From Bacillota bacterium (GTDB taxonomy: Bacteria > Bacillota > Sulfobacillia > Sulfobacillales > Sulfobacillaceae), in NCBI GenBank assembly GCA_021797635.1, contig JAJZZI010000162.1, positions 1,409 through 35,145 on the forward strand: DNA of 33,737 bases, written 5' to 3'. Each line of letters starts with the position of its first letter. Within the stretch, counting starts at the first letter, position 1. Positions 9,408-23,658 of this stretch are shown one piece after another. Below the pieces are notes generated by a model. That model ran no database searches. It was not told the origin of the DNA and worked only from the letters and a program-made list of their open reading frames with translations. The translations under genes were made by a program, and so were the position numbers.

Positions 9408-10004
9408 CTAGCCATGAAGCGCCTTATCGAGAAGAATGTTCAACTGGGTGACATTCACCACCTGAGCACCAAAAATTCCCCACTGCGGCCCCGAAGTGGA
9501 TGCCTCCACCAGCGCACGTAGAAAGCTCTGGGAAAGCCCGGTCGCCTTGGCCACGCGAGGAATTTGGATCATAGCCGCCTCGACACTAATGTCCGGGTCT
9601 AGACCTGAACCCGAGCCCTCCACTAGGTCGGGTGGAATTTGGCTGGTCTTCAACCCAGGGATGCTCTTTTTCAACGCGGCAATGCGAGAGCGAATCTCAG
9701 CCATCAACGCTTGGTTGGTGGGAGCCAAGTTGCTTGGCGCCGAGCTATAAGCGTTGTAGGGGTCGGGTTTGGCGGTGGTGGTCGAAACCGTGTCGGAAGG
9801 CCTGCCCCAAAAATATTTTGCCTGATCGAAATACTGCCCGACATGGGCTGACGCCACCACCCGACCGTTTAGCCTAATTTGGCTGCCGTTGGCCTGGTAG
9901 GGAAAAATCACTTGACTAATCCCAGTCATGGCTAAGGGATAAGCCAGACCTAACAACAACCAAAGAAACAGGGTGACCCCCACGAGAGGCTTTAGATATT
10001 TCAC
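9408..10004 (-). CDS. kdpC: K+-transporting ATPase subunit C (copy 1)
   Basis: 198 aa; N-terminal TM helix, YFWGRPSDT, SGLDPDISVEAAMIQIPRVA, downstream of kdpB. Confidence 0.95.
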   Translation of the reverse strand: MKYLKPLVGVTLFLWLLLGLAYPLAMTGISQVIFPYQANGSQIRLNGRVVASAHVGQYFDQAKYFWGRPSDTVSTTTAKPDPYNAYSSAPSNLAPTNQALMAEIRSRIAALKKSIPGLKTSQIPPDLVEGSGSGLDPDISVEAAMIQIPRVAKATGLSQSFLRALVEASTSGPQWGIFGAQVVNVTQLNILLDKALHG

Positions 10005-10015
10005 GTCGTCACCTC

Positions 10016-12031
10016 CTAGGCCAATCCAAATAAGCCCAGCACACGATCGATTCCCCAGATGCCCACAAAGGGAATCACGATGCCCAGAACACCCCAGTTG
10101 AAGATATTTCTTGCGAGCATTTTGTCCGCCGCCTCAGCTCGGTATGTAACTCCCCGGATGGCAAAGGGAATCAATGCGGGAATGATCAAGGCGTTGAAAA
10201 TGAGCGCCGACAAGATGGCTCCATGGGGCGTCTTAAGCCCCATGATATTGAGCTTCGAGAGCACGCTTAAGGTGGGCACGGCGGCGAACATGGCAGGGAT
10301 AATGGCAAAGTACTTGGCCACGTCGTTGGCGATGGAAAACGTGGTCAAGGCCCCCCGAGTGATTAAGAGTTGCTTTCCCACCATGACCACGTCCAAAAGC
10401 TTGGTCGGGTTGGACTCTAGGTCAATCATGTTGCCCGCTTCTTTGGCCGCCATGGTGCCCGTATTCATGGCCAGCCCGACATCGGCTTGCGCGAGCGCCG
10501 GTGCATCATTCGTACCGTCGCCCGTCATCGCCACCAGCTTGCCTTCCGACTGTTCGCGCTTGATGGTCTCAATTTTGTCTTCGGGCTTGAGCTCGGCGAT
10601 AAAATCGTCAACCCCCGCCTCTTGCGCAATGACCGCCGCCGTGATGCGATTATCTCCGGTGGCCATGACCGTGCGAATGCCCATCCTGCGAAAGTCGTCG
10701 AAACGTTCCTTGAGGCCAGATTTGACAATATCCTTGAGGCGAATCACGCCCAGGGCGCGCCCGTCGATTTCGACGGCAAGCGGCGTCCCACCTTCCCCGG
10801 CAACCGCCTCGGCTAGCTTCTCCAGCTCGGGTCGCTTTTCTGCACTGGAAATTTCGACAATGGCACTTATCGCCCCCTTTCGGATTTGACGGCCGTCCGC
10901 CAGGTCAATGCCGCTCATCCGGGTATGCGCAGAAAAGGGCACGGCTTCGCCTTCGACCAGGGGCAGCGCCTCTAAATGCAGCACGTCTTTGGCCAGCTCG
11001 ACGACCGACCGTCCCTCGGGGGTGCTATCGGACAGCGAAGCGAGTAGTGCCGCTTCGGCCACCTCCTCGACCCGGACGGACGTTACGGGCATAAACTCGG
11101 TGGCCATACGATTGCCAATGGTAATTGTGCCCGTCTTGTCCAAGATGATGGTGTCGATATCGCCCGCCGCCTCGACGGCACGACCGCTCTTGGCCACCAC
11201 GTCAACCTGCGCCACGCGATTCATCCCCGCAATCCCAATGGCGGAGAGTAGAGCACCAATCGTCGTAGGGATGAGACAGACCAAAAGGGCCACCATGGTC
11301 GTGGTATCGGTGGCGTGGGGACCATAATATCGAGCCTGAGGCACTAAGGTGACGACCACCAAGAGAAAGATCAGGGTCAATACCCCCAAGAGGGCGGATA
11401 GAGCGATTTCATTGGGCGTCTTTTGGCGGCTGGCGCCCTCCACCAGGGCAATCATGCGGTCTAAGAAGGTTTGCCCAGGATTCGTCGTAATCCGCACGAC
11501 CAACTGGTCAGAGAGCAGTCGGGTGCCCCCAGTGACGCTGTCGCCCGTGGCCTTAATCACCGGAGCAGATTCTCCGGTGATGGTTGATTCGTCCACTGAG
11601 CCCACGCCTTCGACCACTTCTCCGTCGCTAGGAATGACATCGTCCGGTTCTACCAACACCCGCATGCCCATGGTCAGTTCCTCGGAAGACACCCATTCCC
11701 AAGCGCCGTCGCCTTTCAAGCGCTTGGCTCGAGTACTGGACTTGGTCCGTCGCAAAAAATCTGCCTGGGCACGGCCACGGGCCTCGGCGTAGGACTCCGC
11801 GAAGGTGGCGAACAAGATGGTGAAGAAGAGTACGATGGTTACCAGAAGTTCGTATTGAAATGCCGCTTTGCCAATGGATCCGATGGTAAAAATCAAGGTG
11901 ACCACGGTGCCAATCTCGACCACAAACATGACGGGATTACGGACCATCTCGACGGGATTGAGCTTGGCAAAGGTATCCTTCAATACCTGCATAAAATATG
12001 AGCTATCCATCGTATGCGACATGGCTGTCAT
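10016..12031 (-). CDS. kdpB: K+-transporting P-type ATPase subunit B (copy 1)
   Basis: 671 aa; [36 protein letters not shown] motifs of KdpB. Confidence 0.97.
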   Translation of the reverse strand: MTAMSHTMDSSYFMQVLKDTFAKLNPVEMVRNPVMFVVEIGTVVTLIFTIGSIGKAAFQYELLVTIVLFFTILFATFAESYAEARGRAQADFLRRTKSSTRAKRLKGDGAWEWVSSEELTMGMRVLVEPDDVIPSDGEVVEGVGSVDESTITGESAPVIKATGDSVTGGTRLLSDQLVVRITTNPGQTFLDRMIALVEGASRQKTPNEIALSALLGVLTLIFLLVVVTLVPQARYYGPHATDTTTMVALLVCLIPTTIGALLSAIGIAGMNRVAQVDVVAKSGRAVEAAGDIDTIILDKTGTITIGNRMATEFMPVTSVRVEEVAEAALLASLSDSTPEGRSVVELAKDVLHLEALPLVEGEAVPFSAHTRMSGIDLADGRQIRKGAISAIVEISSAEKRPELEKLAEAVAGEGGTPLAVEIDGRALGVIRLKDIVKSGLKERFDDFRRMGIRTVMATGDNRITAAVIAQEAGVDDFIAELKPEDKIETIKREQSEGKLVAMTGDGTNDAPALAQADVGLAMNTGTMAAKEAGNMIDLESNPTKLLDVVMVGKQLLITRGALTTFSIANDVAKYFAIIPAMFAAVPTLSVLSKLNIMGLKTPHGAILSALIFNALIIPALIPFAIRGVTYRAEAADKMLARNIFNWGVLGIVIPFVGIWGIDRVLGLFGLA

Positions 12032-12057: not shown

Positions 12058-13752
12058 CTAAAATAGGTGATGCGCGAGCAAAAGATAGTGCTCGGCCAAG
12101 GGACCCAGTGCCATCACGGGAAAGAAGGTGAGCGCATTGAGAACCACGACGGAGCCAGCCAAGATGCCACCAAACAGGATGCCCTCAGTGCGCATCGTGC
12201 CCGATGAGGCGGGCACCGAGCGTTTCTTTAACAGTGATTCGGCCAGCAAGAACATCGCCATCACCGAGGCAAAGCGACCAATCACGGTAATGATGCCGAT
12301 GGTCACCTCGTAATAGGGCAGCGCGGCACCGAGCCCGCCCAGCGCCGAGCCGTTATTGGCGGCACCGGAGGTAATTCCGTATAAAATTTCAGCAAACCCC
12401 TGGGGTCCGGGATTAAACACTCCCTTGAGGCCCGCGGGGAGCGCCACCGAGAGGGCCGTCCCTACTAAGATCAGGAAGGGGTGCAGCAAAAACGCAATCG
12501 AGGCCAGCGACACCTCCCGGGCCTCGATTTTCTTGCCCAAAAATTCCGGCGTGCGGCCCACCATGAGACCCATGATGAACACGGTGATCACCACCAACAT
12601 GAGCATGTTGAGCAGCCCCACGCCCTTGCCCCCGAACACCAGGTTCAAAAACATGGCCGAAAAATAGGCCAGCTGAGTGATGGGCAGCGCGCTATCATGT
12701 GCGCTGGCCACGGAGCCCGTGGTAAACGACATCGTCGAGGTTTCAAAGGCTGCCGTGCCGCCGGTGCCAAAAACCAGTTCCGTGCCCACGCGATAGATAT
12801 GTCCATGAAGGCCTAGCGCGTTAATCACCGGATCGCCGAGTTCCATCGGAAAGTACACCATGGCGCCAATGGCTAAATACATTAGTCCGGCCACCGAGAT
12901 TAAGGTCCACGCCATTTTTCGCTTCCCGGTCATGACGCCTAACGTGTAAAAAAAGGCGACGGGTAAAAGGCCCATCATAATCACTTGAAAGAGATTACTT
13001 AGCGCCGTAGGATTTTCCAATGGGTTGGCACTGTTGGCATTGGTAAAGCCACCGCCGTTGGTTCCCAAGTGCTCGATAGCTTCCCAACTGGCCATAGGAC
13101 CTCGAGGCACGACTTGAGTGCTGCCCGTAATGGTATGGATGTGAAGATAGGCCCCCAACGTTTCCGGAACCCCTTGCCACACCATGAGGATGGCGAAAAC
13201 CACGGAGAGTGGCAACAACACGCGGGTACACATGAGAACCAAGTCCACGAAAAAATTGCCCATCTTCTTCCCCGACAGGGCACGAATAAACGCAATCGCC
13301 ATGGTCCCGCCAACGGCCGGGGTAACAAATTGCAGAAATTCCAAGTTGCCAAACTGCGAAAAGAGGGACATCGTATTTTCACCGCTGTATGCCTGCCAGT
13401 TCGTATTCGTACCAAAACTCGTAGCGGTATTGAAGGCGAGCTGAGGATTGACGGCGGGCATGTGCTGGGGATTGAAGGGCAACTGCCCCTGCAGACGGAG
13501 GAGGACGTAGGAAAGCACAATCCAGGCAAAATTAGTCAGGATCAAGGCGACCCCGTATTGCCTGGCCGTCATCGACGCCGACGGGTCGATGCCAAACATA
13601 CGAAAGACGCCATGCTCAAGGGGTCGCAAAGGTTTGTCTAAAAAGGTGGGTTCAAACGAAAACACGCTTGCTATATAGGTTCCGAGGGGTTTTAGCGTAA
13701 CCAAAAAGACGCCCACAACCACCACCCACACCGCTACCGTCTGCAGCGACAA
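12058..13752 (-). CDS. kdpA: K+-transporting ATPase subunit A (copy 1)
   Basis: 564 aa; KdpA pore-loop motifs TNTNWQAYSGENTMS, GTNGGGFTNANSANPLENPT, GAANNGSALGG. Confidence 0.97.
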   Translation of the reverse strand: MSLQTVAVWVVVVGVFLVTLKPLGTYIASVFSFEPTFLDKPLRPLEHGVFRMFGIDPSASMTARQYGVALILTNFAWIVLSYVLLRLQGQLPFNPQHMPAVNPQLAFNTATSFGTNTNWQAYSGENTMSLFSQFGNLEFLQFVTPAVGGTMAIAFIRALSGKKMGNFFVDLVLMCTRVLLPLSVVFAILMVWQGVPETLGAYLHIHTITGSTQVVPRGPMASWEAIEHLGTNGGGFTNANSANPLENPTALSNLFQVIMMGLLPVAFFYTLGVMTGKRKMAWTLISVAGLMYLAIGAMVYFPMELGDPVINALGLHGHIYRVGTELVFGTGGTAAFETSTMSFTTGSVASAHDSALPITQLAYFSAMFLNLVFGGKGVGLLNMLMLVVITVFIMGLMVGRTPEFLGKKIEAREVSLASIAFLLHPFLILVGTALSVALPAGLKGVFNPGPQGFAEILYGITSGAANNGSALGGLGAALPYYEVTIGIITVIGRFASVMAMFLLAESLLKKRSVPASSGTMRTEGILFGGILAGSVVVLNALTFFPVMALGPLAEHYLLLAHHLF

Positions 13753-13782: not shown

Positions 13783-13866
13783 CTAGAATTTCTCAGGGCG
13801 AATAATGACGTACACCAAGTAAATGCTGACGGCCACCGCGAGGCCAAGCAATACCGCGCCTTCCAC
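13783..13866 (-). CDS. kdpF: KdpF-like small membrane protein (copy 1)
   Basis: GTG start at 13866; (M)EGAVLLGLAVAVSIYLVYVIIRPEKF* (27 aa), single TM helix with C-terminal RPEKF typical of KdpF; just upstream of kdpA1. The track ORF 13783-13992 probably over-extends the start. Confidence 0.8.
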   Translation of the reverse strand: MEGAVLLGLAVAVSIYLVYVIIRPEKF

Positions 13867-13886
13867 GACATGCCCCCCTATTGCGC

Positions 13887-13970
13887 CTAAAGGCGCGCCA
13901 AATAGTGCAGCAAGGCCAAGAGCATACTCATCAGAGCCACAATCAGCCCCAGCAGTTCGATGTCTAACAT
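13887..13970 (-). CDS. Uncalled small hydrophobic ORF upstream of kdpF1 (27 aa)
   Basis: ATG at 13970: MLDIELLGLIVALMSMLLALLHYLARL*. Single predicted TM helix; immediately upstream of kdpF1, in a different frame from the track ORF. Confidence 0.5.
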   Translation of the reverse strand: MLDIELLGLIVALMSMLLALLHYLARL

Positions 13971-14168
13971 CGGCCTCAACCTCCATCAACAACGTAACCC
14001 TGACCTAGTATCGGCATTTATCCCCAAAAAAGTCTATGCGTTTTGTCGTATCCGGAAGATGGGGCGGTTTTTCGTGCCAACGGCCATTAGTCGCCAAAAG
14101 AATACTTGATTTCAGGCCCTGAAGGGACCCCTAAAACGTCGACGGATCCTGGGCCCTGTCGGGCATGA

Positions 14169-14202
14169 AAGAGCGGTCAGAGCCATGGCTCTGACCGCTC
14201 TT
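14169..14202. terminator. 34-nt perfect palindrome, probable terminator after kdpF2
   Basis: AAGAGCGGTCAGAGCCATGGCTCTGACCGCTCTT is identical to its reverse complement; it lies just past the kdpF2 stop on the minus strand, followed only by TTTC. Confidence 0.55.
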
Positions 14203-14225
14203 GGCGAAACCCCATATGGGCAGGG

Positions 14226-14312
14226 TTACAGCTTCTCAGGATAGAGAAGCGCATAGAAAAGATAAAACACCGACAAGAGGCCGACAATGCCTCCAATGAC
14301 CATCTCGGTCAC
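14226..14312 (-). CDS. kdpF: KdpF-like small membrane protein (copy 2)
   Basis: GTG start at 14312: (M)TEMVIGGIVGLLSVFYLFYALLYPEKL* (28 aa); TM helix plus YPEKL tail like KdpF. The start GTG overlaps the upstream sORF stop (GTGA). Confidence 0.75.
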   Translation of the reverse strand: MTEMVIGGIVGLLSVFYLFYALLYPEKL

Positions 14313-14434
14313 GACTCTCCACCCCTTCCCCTGGTTCGCATTTGCTGCCTTAAGAGGCGATCGCAGTAGCGTATATACGCTTCGCAGCCAAAGAAAAACA
14401 ACACACAAACCCCCACGCCGGCAACGTCCAACAT
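14309..14434 (-). CDS. Uncalled small ORF upstream of kdpF2 (41 aa)
   Basis: ATG at 14434 with upstream GGGGG; MLDVAGVGVCVLFFFGCEAYIRYCDRLLRQQMRTRGRGGES*; stop TGA overlaps the kdpF2 GTG start. Confidence 0.5.
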   Translation of the reverse strand: MLDVAGVGVCVLFFFGCEAYIRYCDRLLRQQMRTRGRGGES

Positions 14435-14461
14435 CACGATAACCCCCTTACCCGACGACGT

Positions 14462-15040
14462 CTAACTCCGATGGTGTATGAGATGTAGCAGCGCCAAGTT
14501 GATCTCCAAGACATTTACGTAAGAATTTCCGTACATGCCCAGAAAACGGCCAACCGTGTGGGTCGCCACTAAATGACGAACTGAAGACAGGGGCAAGCCA
14601 TTTAGGCGGGCGACCCGTGGTGCTTGAAAGTAGGCGGCAGCGACACTGATGTCAGGGTCCAAGCCGCTGTCCGAACTCTCGACCAGGTCAACGGGCACCT
14701 GGCTCGGCTTTACGCCGGGATTGGTCTTTAGAATATAGGCCATGTTGGCCTGGACTTCCTTGATCAACGCCGGATTGGTCGGCCCATAGTTGCTGGCCGT
14801 TGACGCAGCCGCGTTATACCCGGCAGCCGATGGTCGGCCGTCAAAGAACTTCGGGCTGGTAAAGGATTGCCCAATGAGCTTGGAGCCGATCACCCGCCCA
14901 TGATAGTGGACTAGGCTGCCATTGGCCTGATACGGAAAGAGGAGTTGGGATATCCCGGTCACCACTGCCGCGTACACGACGACGGTCAGGATGCCCAGCA
15001 ACACCAACATCCGAATTGATGTCCACAGATGTTTGATCAC
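14462..15040 (-). CDS. kdpC: K+-transporting ATPase subunit C (copy 2)
   Basis: 192 aa; QLLFPYQANGSL, FFDGRPSA, SGLDPDISVAAAYFQAPRVARLN. Confidence 0.95.
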   Translation of the reverse strand: MIKHLWTSIRMLVLLGILTVVVYAAVVTGISQLLFPYQANGSLVHYHGRVIGSKLIGQSFTSPKFFDGRPSAAGYNAAASTASNYGPTNPALIKEVQANMAYILKTNPGVKPSQVPVDLVESSDSGLDPDISVAAAYFQAPRVARLNGLPLSSVRHLVATHTVGRFLGMYGNSYVNVLEINLALLHLIHHRS

Positions 15041-15063
15041 TTTTGCTTCCCTCCTCGCCTCGT

Positions 15064-17124
15064 TTATGCGTGCAGCGACACTAGATGAAGGGCGGTCACC
15101 AGTAAATCGATGAGTTTAATGCCCACAAACGGCAGCACCAGCCCGCCTAAACCGTATATAAAGAGGTTATTGCGCAAAATGGTAGCTGCCCCGACCGGCT
15201 TGTAGCGCACCCCTCTAAGGGCCAGCGGAATTAAGAGCGGGATGATGATGGCATTGAAAATCACAGCGGAGAGCACTGCCGATTCGGGTGAGGTCAGGTG
15301 CATCACGTTGAGTGCCTGCAATCCTGGAAACACCACCACGAACATGGCCGGGATGATGGCAAAATACTTAGCCACGTCATTGGCCACCGAAAACGTCGTC
15401 ATGGCTCCGCGGGTAATCAAGATTTGCTTGCCAATCTCTACGATGTCCAGCAGCTTGGTCGGATTCGAATCCAAGTCAACCATGTTTCCCGCTTCGCGAG
15501 CAGCCTGCGTGCCAGAGTTCATAGCCACCGCCACATCCGCCTGAGCCAATGCCGGCGCGTCGTTGGTACCGTCCCCGACCATACCCACCAAATAACCTTC
15601 GGCCTGCTCCTTTTGGATGTAGCCGAGCTTGGTCTCGGGCGTGGCCTGCGCTAAGAACTCGTCGACACCCACTTCTTTGGCAATGGTCTCGGCAGTAATG
15701 GGATTGTCTCCCGTAATCATCACCGTCCGGATGCCGGCCGCGCGCAGCGAACTTAAGCGCTCGCTGATTCCCGGTTTGACCACATCTTTTAAGTAGATGA
15801 CACCGAGCGTGCGACGCCCTTCTGCGACCACTAAGGGAGTGCCACCCAACTTACCAATCCGAGTGACCACCTCGTCAAGCTGCTTAGTCGGCACGGTACC
15901 GCCGCATTCCTCCACAAACGCAGGCACCGCTTTGCTCGAACCCTTGCGAATCTGCCGACTATCCATATCGATGCCGGACATTTGCGTCTGGGCCGAAAAC
16001 TCATGGAAATTCGCTCCTACGAGGTCGCGCTCCGTGGTTTCGAAGCCAAATCGATCACGGGCCAAGGCTACGATGGATCGCCCTTCCGGAGTTTCATCAC
16101 TAAGCGAAGACAAAAGCGCCATTTCTCCAAGCTCCCGCTCGTCCACGCCCTCCATCGGGATAAATTCAGTCGCCATACGATTGCCGATGGTGAGCGTCCC
16201 CGTCTTATCCAGCAAGATCACGTTGACATCACCGGCGGCCTCGATGGCTCGGCCCGACATCGCCAGCACGTTTTTCTTAAGTAAGCGGTTCATGCCCGAA
16301 ATGCCAATGGCGGACATCAAACCGCCAATCGTCGTCGGTATCAGACAGACCAACAGCGCAATTAAAATAGTCACCGAGACGGTATTCCCAGAAAAGACGG
16401 CGAAGGGCTCGATGGTCAGCACCACGACCACAAAGATCAGCGTCAGTCCTGCCAGCAAGATGGCCAACGCTATCTCATTGGGAGTCTTCTGCCGTGCGGC
16501 GCCCTCAATCAAGCTAATCATCCGGTCTAAGAAGGTCTCGCCCGGATTGGCCGTGATTTCTACGGTAATCTGGTCGGAGAGTACCCGCGTACCCCCGGTA
16601 ACGGTATTGGTATCGCCGCCAGCGGCCCGAATCACGGGCGCCGATTCTCCCGTGATCGCCGACTCATCGATCGAGGCGGCGCCTTCGATGATGATGCCGT
16701 CACTCGGCACGATCTCGCCGGCAGCAATCATCACGCGATCGCCCTTTCTCAATTCGGTGCCGGCGACCTTGGTTAGCGTTCCGTCCGCACCGATTTTTGA
16801 GGCCATGGTGTCCGTTCGGGTACTACGCAAGGCCTGGGCCTGTGCCCGCCCACGACCCTCGGCAATGGCTTCCGCAAAGTTTGCAAACAGCACCGTAAGC
16901 CAAAGCCAAATGGCAATTTGCAACGTGAAATTAAATAGACCGGCCTTGCCCTCAATCAAGAGTCGAACGGCGTCGAGCGTCGTGAAGACGCTACCCACCT
17001 CGACCACGAACATCACCGGGTTGTGCATCATCCACCGCGGGTTAAGCTTCCTAAACGCATCTCCAATGGCCCGTGTCAACGGTATGCCAACGGTACCCTG
17101 CGGGTTGAGTGGTTGTGCTGCCAC
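15064..17124 (-). CDS. kdpB: K+-transporting P-type ATPase subunit B (copy 2)
   Basis: 686 aa; [60 protein letters not shown]. Confidence 0.97.
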
Positions 17125-18864
17125 TTAGGCCCCTCCTCCTCCAAACAGATGTCCCGACCACAAGGCGAAGTGTTCGGCCAACGGACCCAACGACAGCGCC
17201 GGAAAGAACACCAAGGCCCCTACGATGACCACCGTGGCAATCAAAAGTCCGCCAAACAAAAAGCCATGCGTGGGAAAGGTCCCGGCACTTTCCGGTACCG
17301 ATTGCTTTTGGACCAGAGAACCGGCAATCGCTAGGGCCGGAATATACATTGCGAACCGCCCAAAGAGCATCGCCAAGCCTACGGTCCAGGTATAGAAGGG
17401 AGCAGCAGCATCGAGGCCACCAAAGGCAGATCCGTTGTTGCCCACACCGGACGAGTAGGCATAAAGCACCTCGGACAAACCATGCGGCCCGGGGTTGTAA
17501 ATACCCGCAAGCCCTCCGTGGCTTGTAACCGCCCAGGCGGAAAATCCTAGGATCACAAAGGTAGGCACAATCATGGCCAACACGGCCATCTTGACCTCGT
17601 AAGACCCAATCTTCTTACCAAGGTACTCGGGAGTACGCCCGACCATAAGCCCAGCCAAAAAGACGGCCAAAACGGCAAACGCGAGCATTCCCAACAGCCC
17701 CACGCCCCAGGCTCCGATGATGACTTCTCCGCTCATCATTTGCCAAAGGGTAATCAGTCCGCCGATGGGCATCAAGCTATCATTGGCTGCTGCCGTCGAT
17801 CCCCAAGAGACGGCCGTCGTCGACGACTCAAATAGGGAGGACAAGGCGGGGCCAAAACGCACCTCTTTGCCTTCCATGTTGGGCCCGTGGATTCCGACCA
17901 GGTGATTCAAAATGGGGTTACCCAGGGCTTCGGCGTGATAAAGGACCAAGGTTCCGCCAAGAAACATGACTAACATCGCGCCCAAAATCGTCCATCCCTG
18001 ACGCGTGTCCTTGACCACCTTGCCAAAGTAGTAGGTCAGGCCCACAGGAATGGAAAAGCCTAAGACCATTTGAAACATGAGTGATGCCGCCGTGGCCGTC
18101 TCATAGGGATGGCCGGCGTTCATGTTAAAGAAACCTCCGCCGTTATCACCTAGCTGCATGATGGAGTTCATCATGCCTACGGGTCCCTGTGCTATCGTCT
18201 GAATGCCGCCCTGAAGGGTATGGGCGGTGACATAGGTGCCCCAGTTTTGCGGATTTCCCAGGCCCACTAAGACGATGGCCCCAATAAACGCCATCGGCAA
18301 GCTGACCCATAGTAGCGTGCGCACCAGATCCACCCAAAAGTTGCCCAGGGTATTGGCGTTCTTGCGGGTCAATCCACGAATGAAGGCCAACACCATAGCC
18401 AGACCGGAAATGGGAGACAAAAACTGCTGCATCATCAACATCGCTTGCGAGGCATAGCTCATGGTGCTCTCACCACCATAGGCCTGCCAGTTGGTATTGG
18501 TGGTAAAGCTAACCCCCGTGTTAAACGCTAGATGGGGTCCCACGTCCTTCATATGCATGGGATTGAAGGGCAAGGCTCCTTGAATGCGCAAGGCAATGTA
18601 AAGGACAATAAAGCCGACTAAGTTAAAGGCCAATAGTGCGATGAAGTACTCGGTCCAGCGCATTTCGTGGTCTTCGTTCACACCGGTCCATCGGTAGATC
18701 ACCCGTTCAACAGGACGAATTGCCGGATCGAACCAGGTTTTACGCCGATCATAGACCGCATAGAGATAAAGCCCCATGGGCTTGGCCATTACAACCAGAA
18801 ATGCCGTAAAGACCAAGATGCCTAGGACGCCCGGAACGGTCACGCGTGTCACCTCTTTCTTCAA
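17125..18864 (-). CDS. kdpA: K+-transporting ATPase subunit A (copy 2)
   Basis: 579 aa; TNTNWQAYGGESTMS, GDNGGGFFNMNAGHPYETAT, GVGNNGSAFGG. The true start may be the GTG at 18843 (MTVPGVLG...), preceded by AGAGGTG. Confidence 0.97.
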   Translation of the reverse strand: MKKEVTRVTVPGVLGILVFTAFLVVMAKPMGLYLYAVYDRRKTWFDPAIRPVERVIYRWTGVNEDHEMRWTEYFIALLAFNLVGFIVLYIALRIQGALPFNPMHMKDVGPHLAFNTGVSFTTNTNWQAYGGESTMSYASQAMLMMQQFLSPISGLAMVLAFIRGLTRKNANTLGNFWVDLVRTLLWVSLPMAFIGAIVLVGLGNPQNWGTYVTAHTLQGGIQTIAQGPVGMMNSIMQLGDNGGGFFNMNAGHPYETATAASLMFQMVLGFSIPVGLTYYFGKVVKDTRQGWTILGAMLVMFLGGTLVLYHAEALGNPILNHLVGIHGPNMEGKEVRFGPALSSLFESSTTAVSWGSTAAANDSLMPIGGLITLWQMMSGEVIIGAWGVGLLGMLAFAVLAVFLAGLMVGRTPEYLGKKIGSYEVKMAVLAMIVPTFVILGFSAWAVTSHGGLAGIYNPGPHGLSEVLYAYSSGVGNNGSAFGGLDAAAPFYTWTVGLAMLFGRFAMYIPALAIAGSLVQKQSVPESAGTFPTHGFLFGGLLIATVVIVGALVFFPALSLGPLAEHFALWSGHLFGGGGA

Positions 18865-19396: not shown

Positions 19397-20098
19397 CTAC
19401 TTGCCATGAGGCTTGGGGTACAGGCAGTAGCCGACTCCGGCGTGAGAGACCAGGTACACCGGCCGATGGGGGTCGGGTTCGATATGGCTTCTTAGTCGCC
19501 GGATATAGACGCGAAGGTACTCATGTTCGGCAAGATACTCTTCGCCCCAAACTCGACTTAAGAGATACTCGTGCGTCAACACTTTGCCGCAGTGGGTGGT
19601 CAATTCCTGACACAGGCGCCATTCAATGGGCGTGAGGCGAACGCGGCCATTTGAGCTTTCAATCTCGCGGGTGTCTTTAAGCAACTTAATATCCCCGCAC
19701 GCCGCACCTTCGGCCTGAAGCAGATCACGGCTTCGCCGAAGCAAGGCCCGAATGCGGGCCAGCATCTCACCGGGCGAAAACGGCTTAGCCAAGTAGTCGT
19801 CGGCCCCCATGTCCAATGCTTGGATCGTGTCTGCCTCCGAGTTGAGCGCGGTCAGTACCATCACCGGCACCGTCGACATCTTACGGATCCGCTCGCATAG
19901 GGTAAACCCATCCATATCAGGCAATCTCAGATCAAGTAAGACCACGTCCGGTTCTTCTTGATAAATCCACTGTAACGCCTGGTGACCATCGGCAGCTTCT
20001 CTCACGGCATAGCCCGCCATCACCAGGTTGGTGCGGATCAATCGGCGATATTTGGCCTCATCATCCACGATGAGAATAGACCCACTGACCTCGTCCAT
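19397..20098 (-). CDS. kdpE: OmpR-family response regulator, KdpE-like
   Basis: Start M at 20098 with RBS AAGGAGGGG (track ORF begins upstream at 20236); receiver (ILIVDDEAKYRR, VVLLDLRLPDMDG, KPFSPGEMLARIRALLRR) plus winged-helix DNA-binding domain. Confidence 0.85.
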   Translation of the reverse strand: MDEVSGSILIVDDEAKYRRLIRTNLVMAGYAVREAADGHQALQWIYQEEPDVVLLDLRLPDMDGFTLCERIRKMSTVPVMVLTALNSEADTIQALDMGADDYLAKPFSPGEMLARIRALLRRSRDLLQAEGAACGDIKLLKDTREIESSNGRVRLTPIEWRLCQELTTHCGKVLTHEYLLSRVWGEEYLAEHEYLRVYIRRLRSHIEPDPHRPVYLVSHAGVGYCLYPKPHGK

Positions 20099-20141
20099 CG
20101 TCGGCCCCTCCTTACATTTCTTCGCGGGCCTCCCCGGCTGG

Positions 20142-21803
20142 TTAGCTTGCCAACCGAGCCAGGGGCAGTTGCATGGTGACTTGAAACCCCAGATCGGGCA
20201 GATTCTCGGCGCGGATGTGGCCGTGGTGGTTGTCAACGATGCGTTTCACAATAGAAAGGCCGAGACCCGACCCTCGCACCTCAGACTGTGCGTGCGCTGG
20301 CACGCGATAAAACCGCTCGAATATTCTTGTAATCTCGCTGGGCGGAACCCCTGATCCAAAGTCCCGGACGGTAATTGTCCAGTCACTATGGCTTACGTCG
20401 ACATGAAGTTCGACGCGACCTTTCGAATACTTTACCGCATTTTGTAGCAATTCCCTACACGCCGTGTGCAGTTCACGCGGGTCCCCGTAGACCATCATAT
20501 CCTGGCTAGGCCGGTGGCTGATCAAGATCCGATCCCGTTCCCACGCTGGATGGTGCGCTATTAGAGCATCCAGCCAACTGGAAAGCAAAAACGGTTCAGG
20601 CCGGAACAATGCACCTGCATGGTCCATGCTCGACATAAGTAAGAGATGGTCGATTAGTCCTTCCAGCTCTTCCGTCTCCGAGACCGCCACATCTAAAAAT
20701 TCTTGGCGGTCCTGGTGAGCTAGCCGCTCCCAGGATTGTTGCAGCGTCTCCAAGTATCCTTTAACCAAGCCTAGCGGGGTTCTTAGTTCGTGCGAGACGT
20801 TGGCCAAAATCTCGGATTGCATCCGCGCCCGCTCTTCCATGAGTTGATTGGTTCGCGCCTGTTCGGCCAATTCGGCGGAGGCGGCGGCGATAGCAAACTC
20901 CTGCGCCAACACCTCAAGCAAATCGCGGTAGGTGAAGTACCAGCCGGGCTCGTTGGAGGTTAACAAAAGCACGCCCCACGTGGCTTGTTGATAGCGAAGG
21001 GGGAAGATGGCGACGCGAGCCTTGCGCACCCCGGGGATGAGATAGCCAGCCTCTCCCTCTTCTCCGCTATACTTGGGCACGTTGCTTGCCAAGCTTTCCC
21101 CGATGAGGCCTGTCGTCGACCCGATGAAGGCTTGAGGAATTGGTTGATTGGATAGCTGAAAGTTCCCAATGCTGGCATAAAGAGCCAAACTGGCGCTGCG
21201 GTCGGCGGTGAGTTGATAAATCGCCGCCGACCGCACCGCGGTATGCTGGGTGACTTCAAACAAAATATGATGCATCACCTCGTGCGGATTAGGATTGGAG
21301 GCTAAGGAAGCCCACCCCCGTTCGATGGCCAGCAACTGTTCTTTAAGCATCCCATGTTCCATCTCCAGCCAGGCAATATGCGCCTCCCGAAACCAATAGA
21401 CCGCGACCATAAGGGCGGCGAAGACCACCGCCCAGCTTGCCGGAGAAACGACCCAGCCCTCGAAGGACAACTGGTGCAGACGGGAAATGGCCGCCAGCGC
21501 CAGGTGGGCACTTTGCACGGCGACACTGCCTTGCCTACCGCGCACTCCCAGAAGGGATCGGGCCATGGCCAGGAGGTGAAGCGCCGTCGTCGGAGACGCC
21601 GTTTGGCGGGCATTTTCGATAGCAGCAAAGGCCAACGTGGCATGCATATACTGTCGATGCCAGGTATAGGAGGAGCGCCCGAGGATCCCCACCAAGACGA
21701 TCGCCGTGGCGATTAGGGCCGTGGCCACGCCAAGACTTCGGCGCGGCCCGCTTCGATAGTTAGGGGTCATCGCCGCCTTGGACCCCCGCGCTCTATGGGC
21801 CAT
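20142..21803 (-). CDS. Sensor histidine kinase (TM + GAF-like + HisKA + HATPase), partner of KdpE-like regulator
   Basis: HisKA ILANVSHELRTPLGLVKGYLETL, N box ELLQNAVKYS, G boxes DFGSGV, GSGLGLSIVKRIV. ORF track start is 21860; an internal ATG at 21803 (MAHRARGSK) overlaps the permease stop. Confidence 0.88.
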   Translation of the reverse strand: MAHRARGSKAAMTPNYRSGPRRSLGVATALIATAIVLVGILGRSSYTWHRQYMHATLAFAAIENARQTASPTTALHLLAMARSLLGVRGRQGSVAVQSAHLALAAISRLHQLSFEGWVVSPASWAVVFAALMVAVYWFREAHIAWLEMEHGMLKEQLLAIERGWASLASNPNPHEVMHHILFEVTQHTAVRSAAIYQLTADRSASLALYASIGNFQLSNQPIPQAFIGSTTGLIGESLASNVPKYSGEEGEAGYLIPGVRKARVAIFPLRYQQATWGVLLLTSNEPGWYFTYRDLLEVLAQEFAIAAASAELAEQARTNQLMEERARMQSEILANVSHELRTPLGLVKGYLETLQQSWERLAHQDRQEFLDVAVSETEELEGLIDHLLLMSSMDHAGALFRPEPFLLSSWLDALIAHHPAWERDRILISHRPSQDMMVYGDPRELHTACRELLQNAVKYSKGRVELHVDVSHSDWTITVRDFGSGVPPSEITRIFERFYRVPAHAQSEVRGSGLGLSIVKRIVDNHHGHIRAENLPDLGFQVTMQLPLARLAS

Positions 21804-23658
21804 CCGACTTACGCGACCCGCTGCCCAGGGGATCGGGCAGATGCATCGGCACCATGCCAATCACTACGTCCGTGCGTTTTTTAAGGGCGTTGGCGATGGC
21901 CGTGCCTAAACGGTTATGCATCAGCATGCTACCCAGACTATCCGGCACCACTTCAGGCACGAGCACCAGAATGCGCTGATTGGCGTGGCGTTCAATGCTG
22001 TTGATAAAGCGAAGCAGGGGCCGGATCACGGACTGGTATTGCGATTTTAAGATCACTAAACGTACGGGAGGATTCCATTTCTGCCAGTCGGCTTCGAATA
22101 CCCTGCGGAGCTGACTGTCTTCTCCATGGGGGGCTTCCAGAAAGACCACCACCGCGATCACCTCATCGCTTAAAGAAAGGGCGTGGCTCAAGGCCCGGCG
22201 CGTCAACTCGGTCAAGGACGGCGCTAAAGGCACGATGACGATGGGCCTCGGCCAAGGGGTCACAGGCTGAGGCAGGCCGCCGACCTGAAGTTGGCGCCCG
22301 GCGCGATCGTAATAGCGGCGAATGCGTCCGAAGAGAAAAATGATGACGGGGATGGCCAACACCACCACCCAGGCACCCTCGACGAATTTGGTCACCACGA
22401 ACAGCATGGTGGCTAGTCCCGTCGCGAATGCCCCCGCCAGATTGAGCGTGGCTCGAAGCTTCCAGCCCGGCGGTCGGGTCTTTCGCCAATGCAGCACCAT
22501 GCCAAATTGCGACAGGGTAAATCCCGTAAACACGCCAATCGCAAACATGGGAATCAGCGCTTGCGTATTGCCGTTAACGGCTACCAAAAGCAGGGCAGAG
22601 GCCATGGCCAAGACCCAGATCCCCCGCTCGAAGACTAAGCGATCGCCACGGATGGCAAACGATTGAGGAAGATAACGATCCCGGGCCAGCAAGCTGGCTA
22701 ATACCGGCAAACTTCCAAATGAGGTATTCGCCGCCAAACCAAGTACGGTGGTAATCGCTAATGAAACCACAAAAAACGCCCAGCTTCGACCTACAGCTCC
22801 AACCATGACCTTGCTCAAGAGCGTGGTATTGCCCCCGGGAAGAACGCCAAATCGCACGGTTAAGAGCGCTATTCCCAGCAACATCGCACCCAACAGTATG
22901 CCGAGCAGCCATTCTGTCCGTTTAGCGCGAAGTTGGCGAGGTTCGCGAAACAGGGGCACCCCATTGGCAATCGCTTCAACTCCCGTCAACGCCGTGCATC
23001 CGGCGGCAAACGCCGTAAGCAGGAAAAAGAGGCTTACATGAGGGGGAGCGCTGGCTATGGGCACTTTCTTAAGCATATAGGTATGCGCGGGGCGAAAAAA
23101 CCCATAGGCCAAGACACCGAGCAAGCCCACCACGAATACCATCGTCGGAAACAAAAAGGCCCTCGCACTTTCCCCAACTCCTCGGAGATTCATGAAGGTC
23201 ACGATGGCCAACAGGCCCAGGCACATCACTAAGGTCCAGGGCAACAGCGAAGGAAACGTCGAGGTCAAAGCCCCAATGCCTGCTGCAATCGAAATCGACA
23301 CGGTTAAGATATAATCTACGATTAACGCGGCAGCCGCCAATTTACTGGCGCCCGTTCCTAAATTGTCTTTGGAAACGGCGTAGGCCCCACCACCTTGCGG
23401 ATAGGCATCGATGACTTGACTATAGGACAAAACCAAAATTGCCAGCAATCCGATGATCGCCAGGGAAATGGGCAATAAATAGTGGATGCCTGCGGCGCCG
23501 ACGGTAATCAGCACCAAGGCAATCGCTTCAGGGCCGTAGGCCACTGAAGTTAAAGCATCTAGCGAAAGCGCCGCCAGTCCGCCAGACGTTCCGATTTCTT
23601 CCGATTCCGATTCGCGCGCCTTAAGCGGCCGCCCAAACAAAAACTGCCACGCGTCCAT
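21793..23658 (-). CDS. APC-superfamily permease, KimA/YdaO-like potassium importer
   Basis: 621 aa; resembles KimA as recalled: SLDALTSVAYGPEAI, YPQGGGAYAVSKDNLG, LAANTSFGSLPVLASLLARDRYLPQSFAIRGDRL, C-terminal cytosolic domain IVIVPLAPSLTELTRRALSHALSLSDEVIAVVV. Confidence 0.8.
   Translation of the reverse strand: MDAWQFLFGRPLKARESESEEIGTSGGLAALSLDALTSVAYGPEAIALVLITVGAAGIHYLLPISLAIIGLLAILVLSYSQVIDAYPQGGGAYAVSKDNLGTGASKLAAAALIVDYILTVSISIAAGIGALTSTFPSLLPWTLVMCLGLLAIVTFMNLRGVGESARAFLFPTMVFVVGLLGVLAYGFFRPAHTYMLKKVPIASAPPHVSLFFLLTAFAAGCTALTGVEAIANGVPLFREPRQLRAKRTEWLLGILLGAMLLGIALLTVRFGVLPGGNTTLLSKVMVGAVGRSWAFFVVSLAITTVLGLAANTSFGSLPVLASLLARDRYLPQSFAIRGDRLVFERGIWVLAMASALLLVAVNGNTQALIPMFAIGVFTGFTLSQFGMVLHWRKTRPPGWKLRATLNLAGAFATGLATMLFVVTKFVEGAWVVVLAIPVIIFLFGRIRRYYDRAGRQLQVGGLPQPVTPWPRPIVIVPLAPSLTELTRRALSHALSLSDEVIAVVVFLEAPHGEDSQLRRVFEADWQKWNPPVRLVILKSQYQSVIRPLLRFINSIERHANQRILVLVPEVVPDSLGSMLMHNRLGTAIANALKKRTDVVIGMVPMHLPDPLGSGSRKSDGP

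Follow-up and report, generated by a model that had tools for sequence, protein, structure and literature searches.

A conserved single-helix microprotein family encoded beside kdpF, a candidate additional component of the bacterial Kdp potassium pump

Introduction

No bacterial K+ pump has been studied more closely than Kdp, whose subunits were established in E. coli; the role of KdpF is poorly understood. The stretch of DNA analysed here (hereafter the window: 33,737 nt, positions 1,409 to 35,145 of contig JAJZZI010000162.1, assembly GCA_021797635.1) comes from a member of the Sulfobacillaceae and contains two kdp sets. Among named relatives, Sulfobacillus harzensis is the closest (80% in KdpA), which makes the source a bacterium of Sulfobacillus type. 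In both kdp sets, as a sequence-only reading of this DNA had correctly pointed out, kdpF is preceded on the same strand by a short hydrophobic open reading frame starting with MLD (sORF1 and sORF2). Are these two small ORFs genes and, if so, what might their products do next to a textbook pump?

Organization of the two kdp sets

The sequence-only reading had assigned one sORF-kdpF unit to each kdp set. This stands, but the unit does not precede its set in both cases: set 2 is opened by its unit (sORF1-kdpF1-kdpA2-kdpB2-kdpC2), but set 1 ends on it (kdpA1-kdpB1-kdpC1-sORF2-kdpF2), with kdpF at the 3' end and a stem-loop after it (table 1).

Table 1. Features of the two kdp sets, in window coordinates
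Feature	Position	Strand	Basis
kdpA, set 1	17125..18864	-	TIGR00680, 656.8 bits
kdpB, set 1	15064..17124	-	DKTGTLT motif and position; alignment with relatives
kdpC, set 1	14462..15040	-	NCBIfam NF001454, 210 bits
sORF2, 41 aa, predicted single-TM microprotein, canonical family member	14309..14434	-	outside-class profile and codon-position pattern
kdpF2, KdpF of 28 aa, GTG start	14226..14312	-	PF09604, 1.5e-06, above cut-off; start position kept in relatives
15-bp stem-loop 3' of kdpF2, terminator-like, between sets 1 and 2	14169..14202	-	-30.6 kcal/mol, z -5.4
sORF1, 27 aa, predicted single-TM microprotein, probable divergent member of the sORF2 family	13887..13970	-	weak profile score alone; ortholog scores; pN/pS
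kdpF1, KdpF of 27 aa, GTG start	13783..13866	-	PF09604, 8.3e-09, above cut-off
kdpA, set 2	12058..13752	-	TIGR00680, 570.9 bits
kdpB, set 2	10016..12031	-	read in window; alignment with relatives
kdpC, set 2	9408..10004	-	NCBIfam NF001454, 208 bits

sORF2 (translation MLDVAGVGVCVLFFFGCEAYIRYCDRLLRQQMRTRGRGGES) starts 27 nt past the kdpC1 stop, and kdpF1 starts 20 nt past the stop of sORF1 (translation MLDIELLGLIVALMSMLLALLHYLARL). A Shine-Dalgarno-like stretch lies about 8 nt 5' of both small ORFs (AAGGGGG for sORF2, GGAGGT for sORF1). The proposed overlap of the sORF2 stop with the kdpF2 start (GTGA) is confirmed, and is credible because this GTG occupies the very position at which relatives start, with the ATG of M[VA]EM[VL]IGG. 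As the T-run of the stem-loop is short (UUUC), termination after kdpF2 is presumptive; the 15-bp inverted repeat (14169-14202) could also be a bidirectional terminator between the two sets. In the window, neither a riboswitch nor any other known RNA was found at Rfam gathering thresholds, and a promoter scan returned no signal exceeding shuffles.

Upstream of set 1, the region 19397-23658 (minus strand) encodes a response regulator, a histidine kinase that lacks the KdpD-typical N-terminal part and an AA_permease_2 protein, which we take to resemble KimA-type K+ importers. This gene content suggests a K+ uptake cluster.

A small hydrophobic ORF beside most kdpF genes

The kdpA loci used for comparison were drawn from the window's class, a named genome collection, plasmid records and random draws, the last covering Gammaproteobacteria-, Actinobacteriota-, Bacteroidota-, Cyanobacteria- and Clostridia-type groups and centred on named loci. 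The count covers 169 distinct kdpF genes from these loci, each preceded by 120 nt or more of sequence; a sORF was counted when an ORF of 22-50 aa on the same strand, with a strong hydrophobic segment, ended in the interval from -90 to +24 relative to the start of kdpF. Such an ORF was present at 135 of the 169 loci (79.9%), versus 2.9% after dinucleotide shuffling and 1.8% in the antisense control, so that the layout is beyond chance, as had been argued from its repetition in the window. The commonest spacing is a 4-nt overlap (gap -4, 23 loci), and gaps of 10-16 nt are also frequent. Several of the loci left uncounted hold, on inspection, a divergent or slightly shifted sORF (L015, L097 and L102).

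The search for such ORFs beside kdpF, which had been recommended among Firmicutes, is successful well past this phylum. Indeed, sORFs were recorded in Alpha-, Beta-, Gamma- and Deltaproteobacteria, Acidobacteriota, Chloroflexota, Bacteroidota, Actinobacteriota, Cyanobacteria, Deinococcota, Bacillota and Eremiobacterota. In E. coli K-12, kdpF is not preceded by a sORF, though kdpFABC is present, and thus the sORF protein is not obligatory for a Kdp pump; one Proteus locus and one Halobacterium locus also showed no sORF.

Two loci deserve separate mention. In Deinococcus radiodurans (L114, 1230-1387), an unannotated sORF and an unannotated kdpF, overlapping at ATGA, lie between kdpB and kdpA. 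In one relative (G716; L286, 7357-7589), two hydrophobic sORFs precede kdpF, and the profile match is the farther one.

One family under coding selection

A family profile was built from 112 sORFs, all from outside the window's class. sORF2 scores 31.5 bits against this profile, a value equalled by none of 500 residue shuffles; the range for its orthologs at set-1 loci is 24-32 bits. sORF1 reaches only 5.0 bits by itself, and 11 of 500 shuffles are equally good; with the profile of alignment A2 it is found at 3.2e-5, a value to be read with the fact that A2 itself contains sORF1. Homology over some 27 hydrophobic residues is intrinsically weak. However, 11 of the 13 sORF1-type sequences of relatives score 11-25 bits against the outside-class profile, among them MLDIEMIGLTVILFLGLVYLIRLFGRV (21.0 bits), MLDVEMLALTVLLFAGLLYFAELLSKL (21.1 bits) and the S. 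harzensis ortholog MLDVEMMVLVLALLGVMLALLHYLERL (11.3 bits, 0 of 500 shuffles). Because most of its orthologs score in this range, the most fitting reading of sORF1 is that of a divergent member of the sORF2 family; judged by their sequences, which are 33% identical, the two are distant relatives.

The family is marked by M-x-D at the start, F at position 14 (80%), Y/F at 20 and, on the C side, C at 24 (59%), [DE] at 25 (71%), [RK] at 26 (71%) and [LIV] at 27 (91%). The helix of sORF2 ends in YCDRL followed by a basic tail, and sORF1 runs from MLD to LARL (LERL in close orthologs). The MLD start, first taken as the mark of these ORFs, is present in both, yet it is less diagnostic than M-x-D ... 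F14 ... Y20 ... C-[DE]-[RK]-[LIV]. The N side is acidic and the C side basic, the same charge bias as in KdpF, which suggests an N-out/C-in orientation of the protein. No significant conservation moment was found for a face of the helix (p 0.45).

Substitution patterns show that these ORFs are under coding selection. Across four independent close pairs of sORF2 orthologs, substitutions at codon positions 1/2/3 number 4/4/27 (pN/pS 0.11); the corresponding figures in the sORF1 close group are 80/21/137 (pN/pS 0.29), and wider sORF groups have pN/pS of 0.39-0.56. The check on codon-level conservation that had been called for thereby reveals purifying selection on both. Moreover, residue couplings inside the sORF fall at i+3/i+4 (20-24, 13-17, 10-14, 15-19 and 7-10), and indicate that a helix is what selection acts on in the predicted protein. 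Between the sORF protein and KdpF, coupling analysis gave no contact signal above noise with about 100 effective sequences.

From their sequences, both ORFs of the window are thus read as true protein-coding genes that belong to a single ancient family of predicted single-TM-helix microproteins of about 26-40 aa, and it is almost certain that the sORFs partnering kdpF form a real family.

Linkage to kdp loci and movement with kdpF

In the window's own genome, the only two profile matches are the sORF1 and sORF2 sites, and among 41 genomes (this one and relatives) 29 of 30 matches are at kdp loci. When kinship is ignored, 235 kdpA loci divide into 156 with both KdpF and a sORF, 24 with KdpF only, 5 with a sORF only and 50 with neither. 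The sORF adjoins kdpF on the same strand at 156 of the 180 KdpF loci, as do both sORFs of the window. The 24 loci with kdpF alone include set 2 of L118 and of L119 (9926-10009 and 5542-5625, respectively), where kdpF has no recognisable sORF and the adjacent set 1 has one.

The gene order varies, and the sORF moves together with kdpF across the layouts. Order kdpC-sORF-kdpF is found in 15 of 15 set-1-type loci (families f1, f3, f9 and f19 of the class), and kdpF-sORF-kdpA in Deltaproteobacteria, Burkholderia and one Rhizobium locus (Rhizobium mayense). No fusion of the sORF to KdpF, KdpA or KdpC was found in the sample, matches in long frames being unstarted upstream extensions. The position of kdpF at the operon end (kdpA-B-C-sORF-kdpF, window 14226-18864, minus strand) is in itself an unusual order, conserved in the 15 set-1-type loci of the class.

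Known families and precedents

Neither Pfam nor NCBIfam holds a model for the family, and a search of PDB chains gave no match to it (best E 0.45). The PDB KdpA chains found are three near-identical 557-aa sequences from E. coli, the species to which the structural picture of Kdp is owed and in which the sORF is missing. Two candidate identities were rejected: NrdG2 (TIGR02495; 17.8 bits versus a cut-off of 131) and BcsF (PF11120; best E 0.06, far under the cut-off). In public plasmid records, the Azospirillum sORF is annotated as 'hypothetical protein' (WP_281280356.1), and those of Rhizobium, Sinorhizobium, Sphingomonas and Deinococcus are unannotated; a gene of fewer than 45 codons can therefore go missed in very many genomes.

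Our literature search found no paper describing the sORF family. However, the description of the family as new needs one reservation, as an old report appears to include a member. One article (PMC5401905) writes the Clostridium acetobutylicum operon as kdpZYABCXDE, citing Treuner-Lange et al. 1997. There, kdpZ (orfZ) comes first and is followed at once by Y, a small gene expected to encode KdpF, and a Clostridium relative (L109) has the same layout, with MIDAIFIIVTALCFLLILPFITWCESEINKNQHIT followed by KdpF. From this position and this relative, kdpZ appears to be a family member, the likeness of kdpZ itself being one of operon order; it is the only precedent found. In the paper of Treuner-Lange and co-workers, orfZ and orfY reportedly figure as putative hydrophobic peptides, orfZ being given neither family nor function.

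As work-alikes, CydX, AcrZ and similar accessory subunits come to mind, one-helix microproteins that act on a membrane enzyme or pump or share its operon. They are non-homologous to the sORF protein as far as tested (no Pfam match), and the putative partner here is a P-type K+ ATPase. The sORF family would be a new addition to the one-helix accessory microproteins, themselves a known kind, and is associated here with a textbook pump.

Role of the sORF protein

A one-helix family found beside kdpF in most bacteria sampled and missing from E. coli makes an unrecognised extra part of Kdp probable. The sORF protein is probably a fifth, KdpF-associated single-helix subunit of Kdp, or an assembly or stability factor. 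It would be produced along with KdpF, often via overlapping or abutting codons, insert in the membrane, pack there with the pump, probably near KdpF, and affect the stability or activity of the high-affinity K+ ATPase. The earlier proposal of a Kdp accessory micropeptide family is therefore substantiated as regards the family (position, co-occurrence, genomic exclusivity and purifying selection), and its physical joining of KdpFABC is what we infer. The wider proposition, that most bacterial Kdp pumps carry such a fifth subunit beside KdpF and that the structurally studied E. coli complex is a reduced form, seems to us evenly balanced. A conserved KdpF partner across most phyla would revise which subunits are listed for a textbook complex and offer KdpF a possible physical partner; pump assembly or regulation in most bacteria would then depart from textbook KdpFABC.

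Other roles are conceivable. The sORF product could be a regulatory membrane peptide outside the pump, with KdpD, the sensor kinase, or some other K+ sensor as its target, for instance. KdpF itself, when overproduced, has been studied as such a peptide (PMC3618439), and the conserved charged end (C-[DE]-[RK]) would be cytoplasmic if the charge rule holds. However, in all layouts the sORF is linked to kdpF and kdpA/C rather than to kdpD/E, and in set 1 it accompanies kdpF behind kdpABC, on the 3' side, which makes this role unlikely.

Could the sORF instead be a translational leader or coupler that opens the ribosome site of kdpF, its peptide being inert? GTGA or ATGA overlaps and short gaps are common, and the region before kdpF in Caulobacter, about the size of a sORF, has been described as a structured 5' UTR of some 100 nt (PMC8552747). 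Yet the amino-acid sequence is conserved across phyla under purifying selection, and in several taxa the sORF lies downstream of kdpF and cannot be its leader there; we consider an inert leader quite improbable.

That the sORF encodes a second KdpF, duplicated or diverged, is more doubtful still. The likeness is real: both are tiny membrane proteins of similar size with a single helix and the same charge bias, encoded by adjacent genes of the kdp operon. However, the family lacks the PEKF-type end of KdpF (P-E-[KR]-[FL]) and terminates in C-[DE]-[RK]-[LIV], neither the two sORFs of the window nor 46 family members match PF09604 or TIGR02115, and a profile-profile comparison aligns just 12 columns with 17% probability; on these grounds the duplicate was rejected. 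Lastly, short hydrophobic ORFs arise easily, and sORF1, taken singly, does not stand out strongly from shuffles of itself; yet an origin of the two ORFs by chance in a GC-rich spacer is a negligible prospect, refuted by the prevalence relative to shuffles, the profile, the exclusive genomic location and the bias of substitutions towards third codon positions.

Besides the family that we regard as a probable Kdp component, a second, different small hydrophobic ORF lies between kdpF and kdpA in four Bradyrhizobium loci (L087, 4786-4891; L101, 4792-4891; L106, 3720-3819; L110, 4753-4891), as exemplified by MIGQLLVADAALTILLVGVLAMLLRSKPIRKV.
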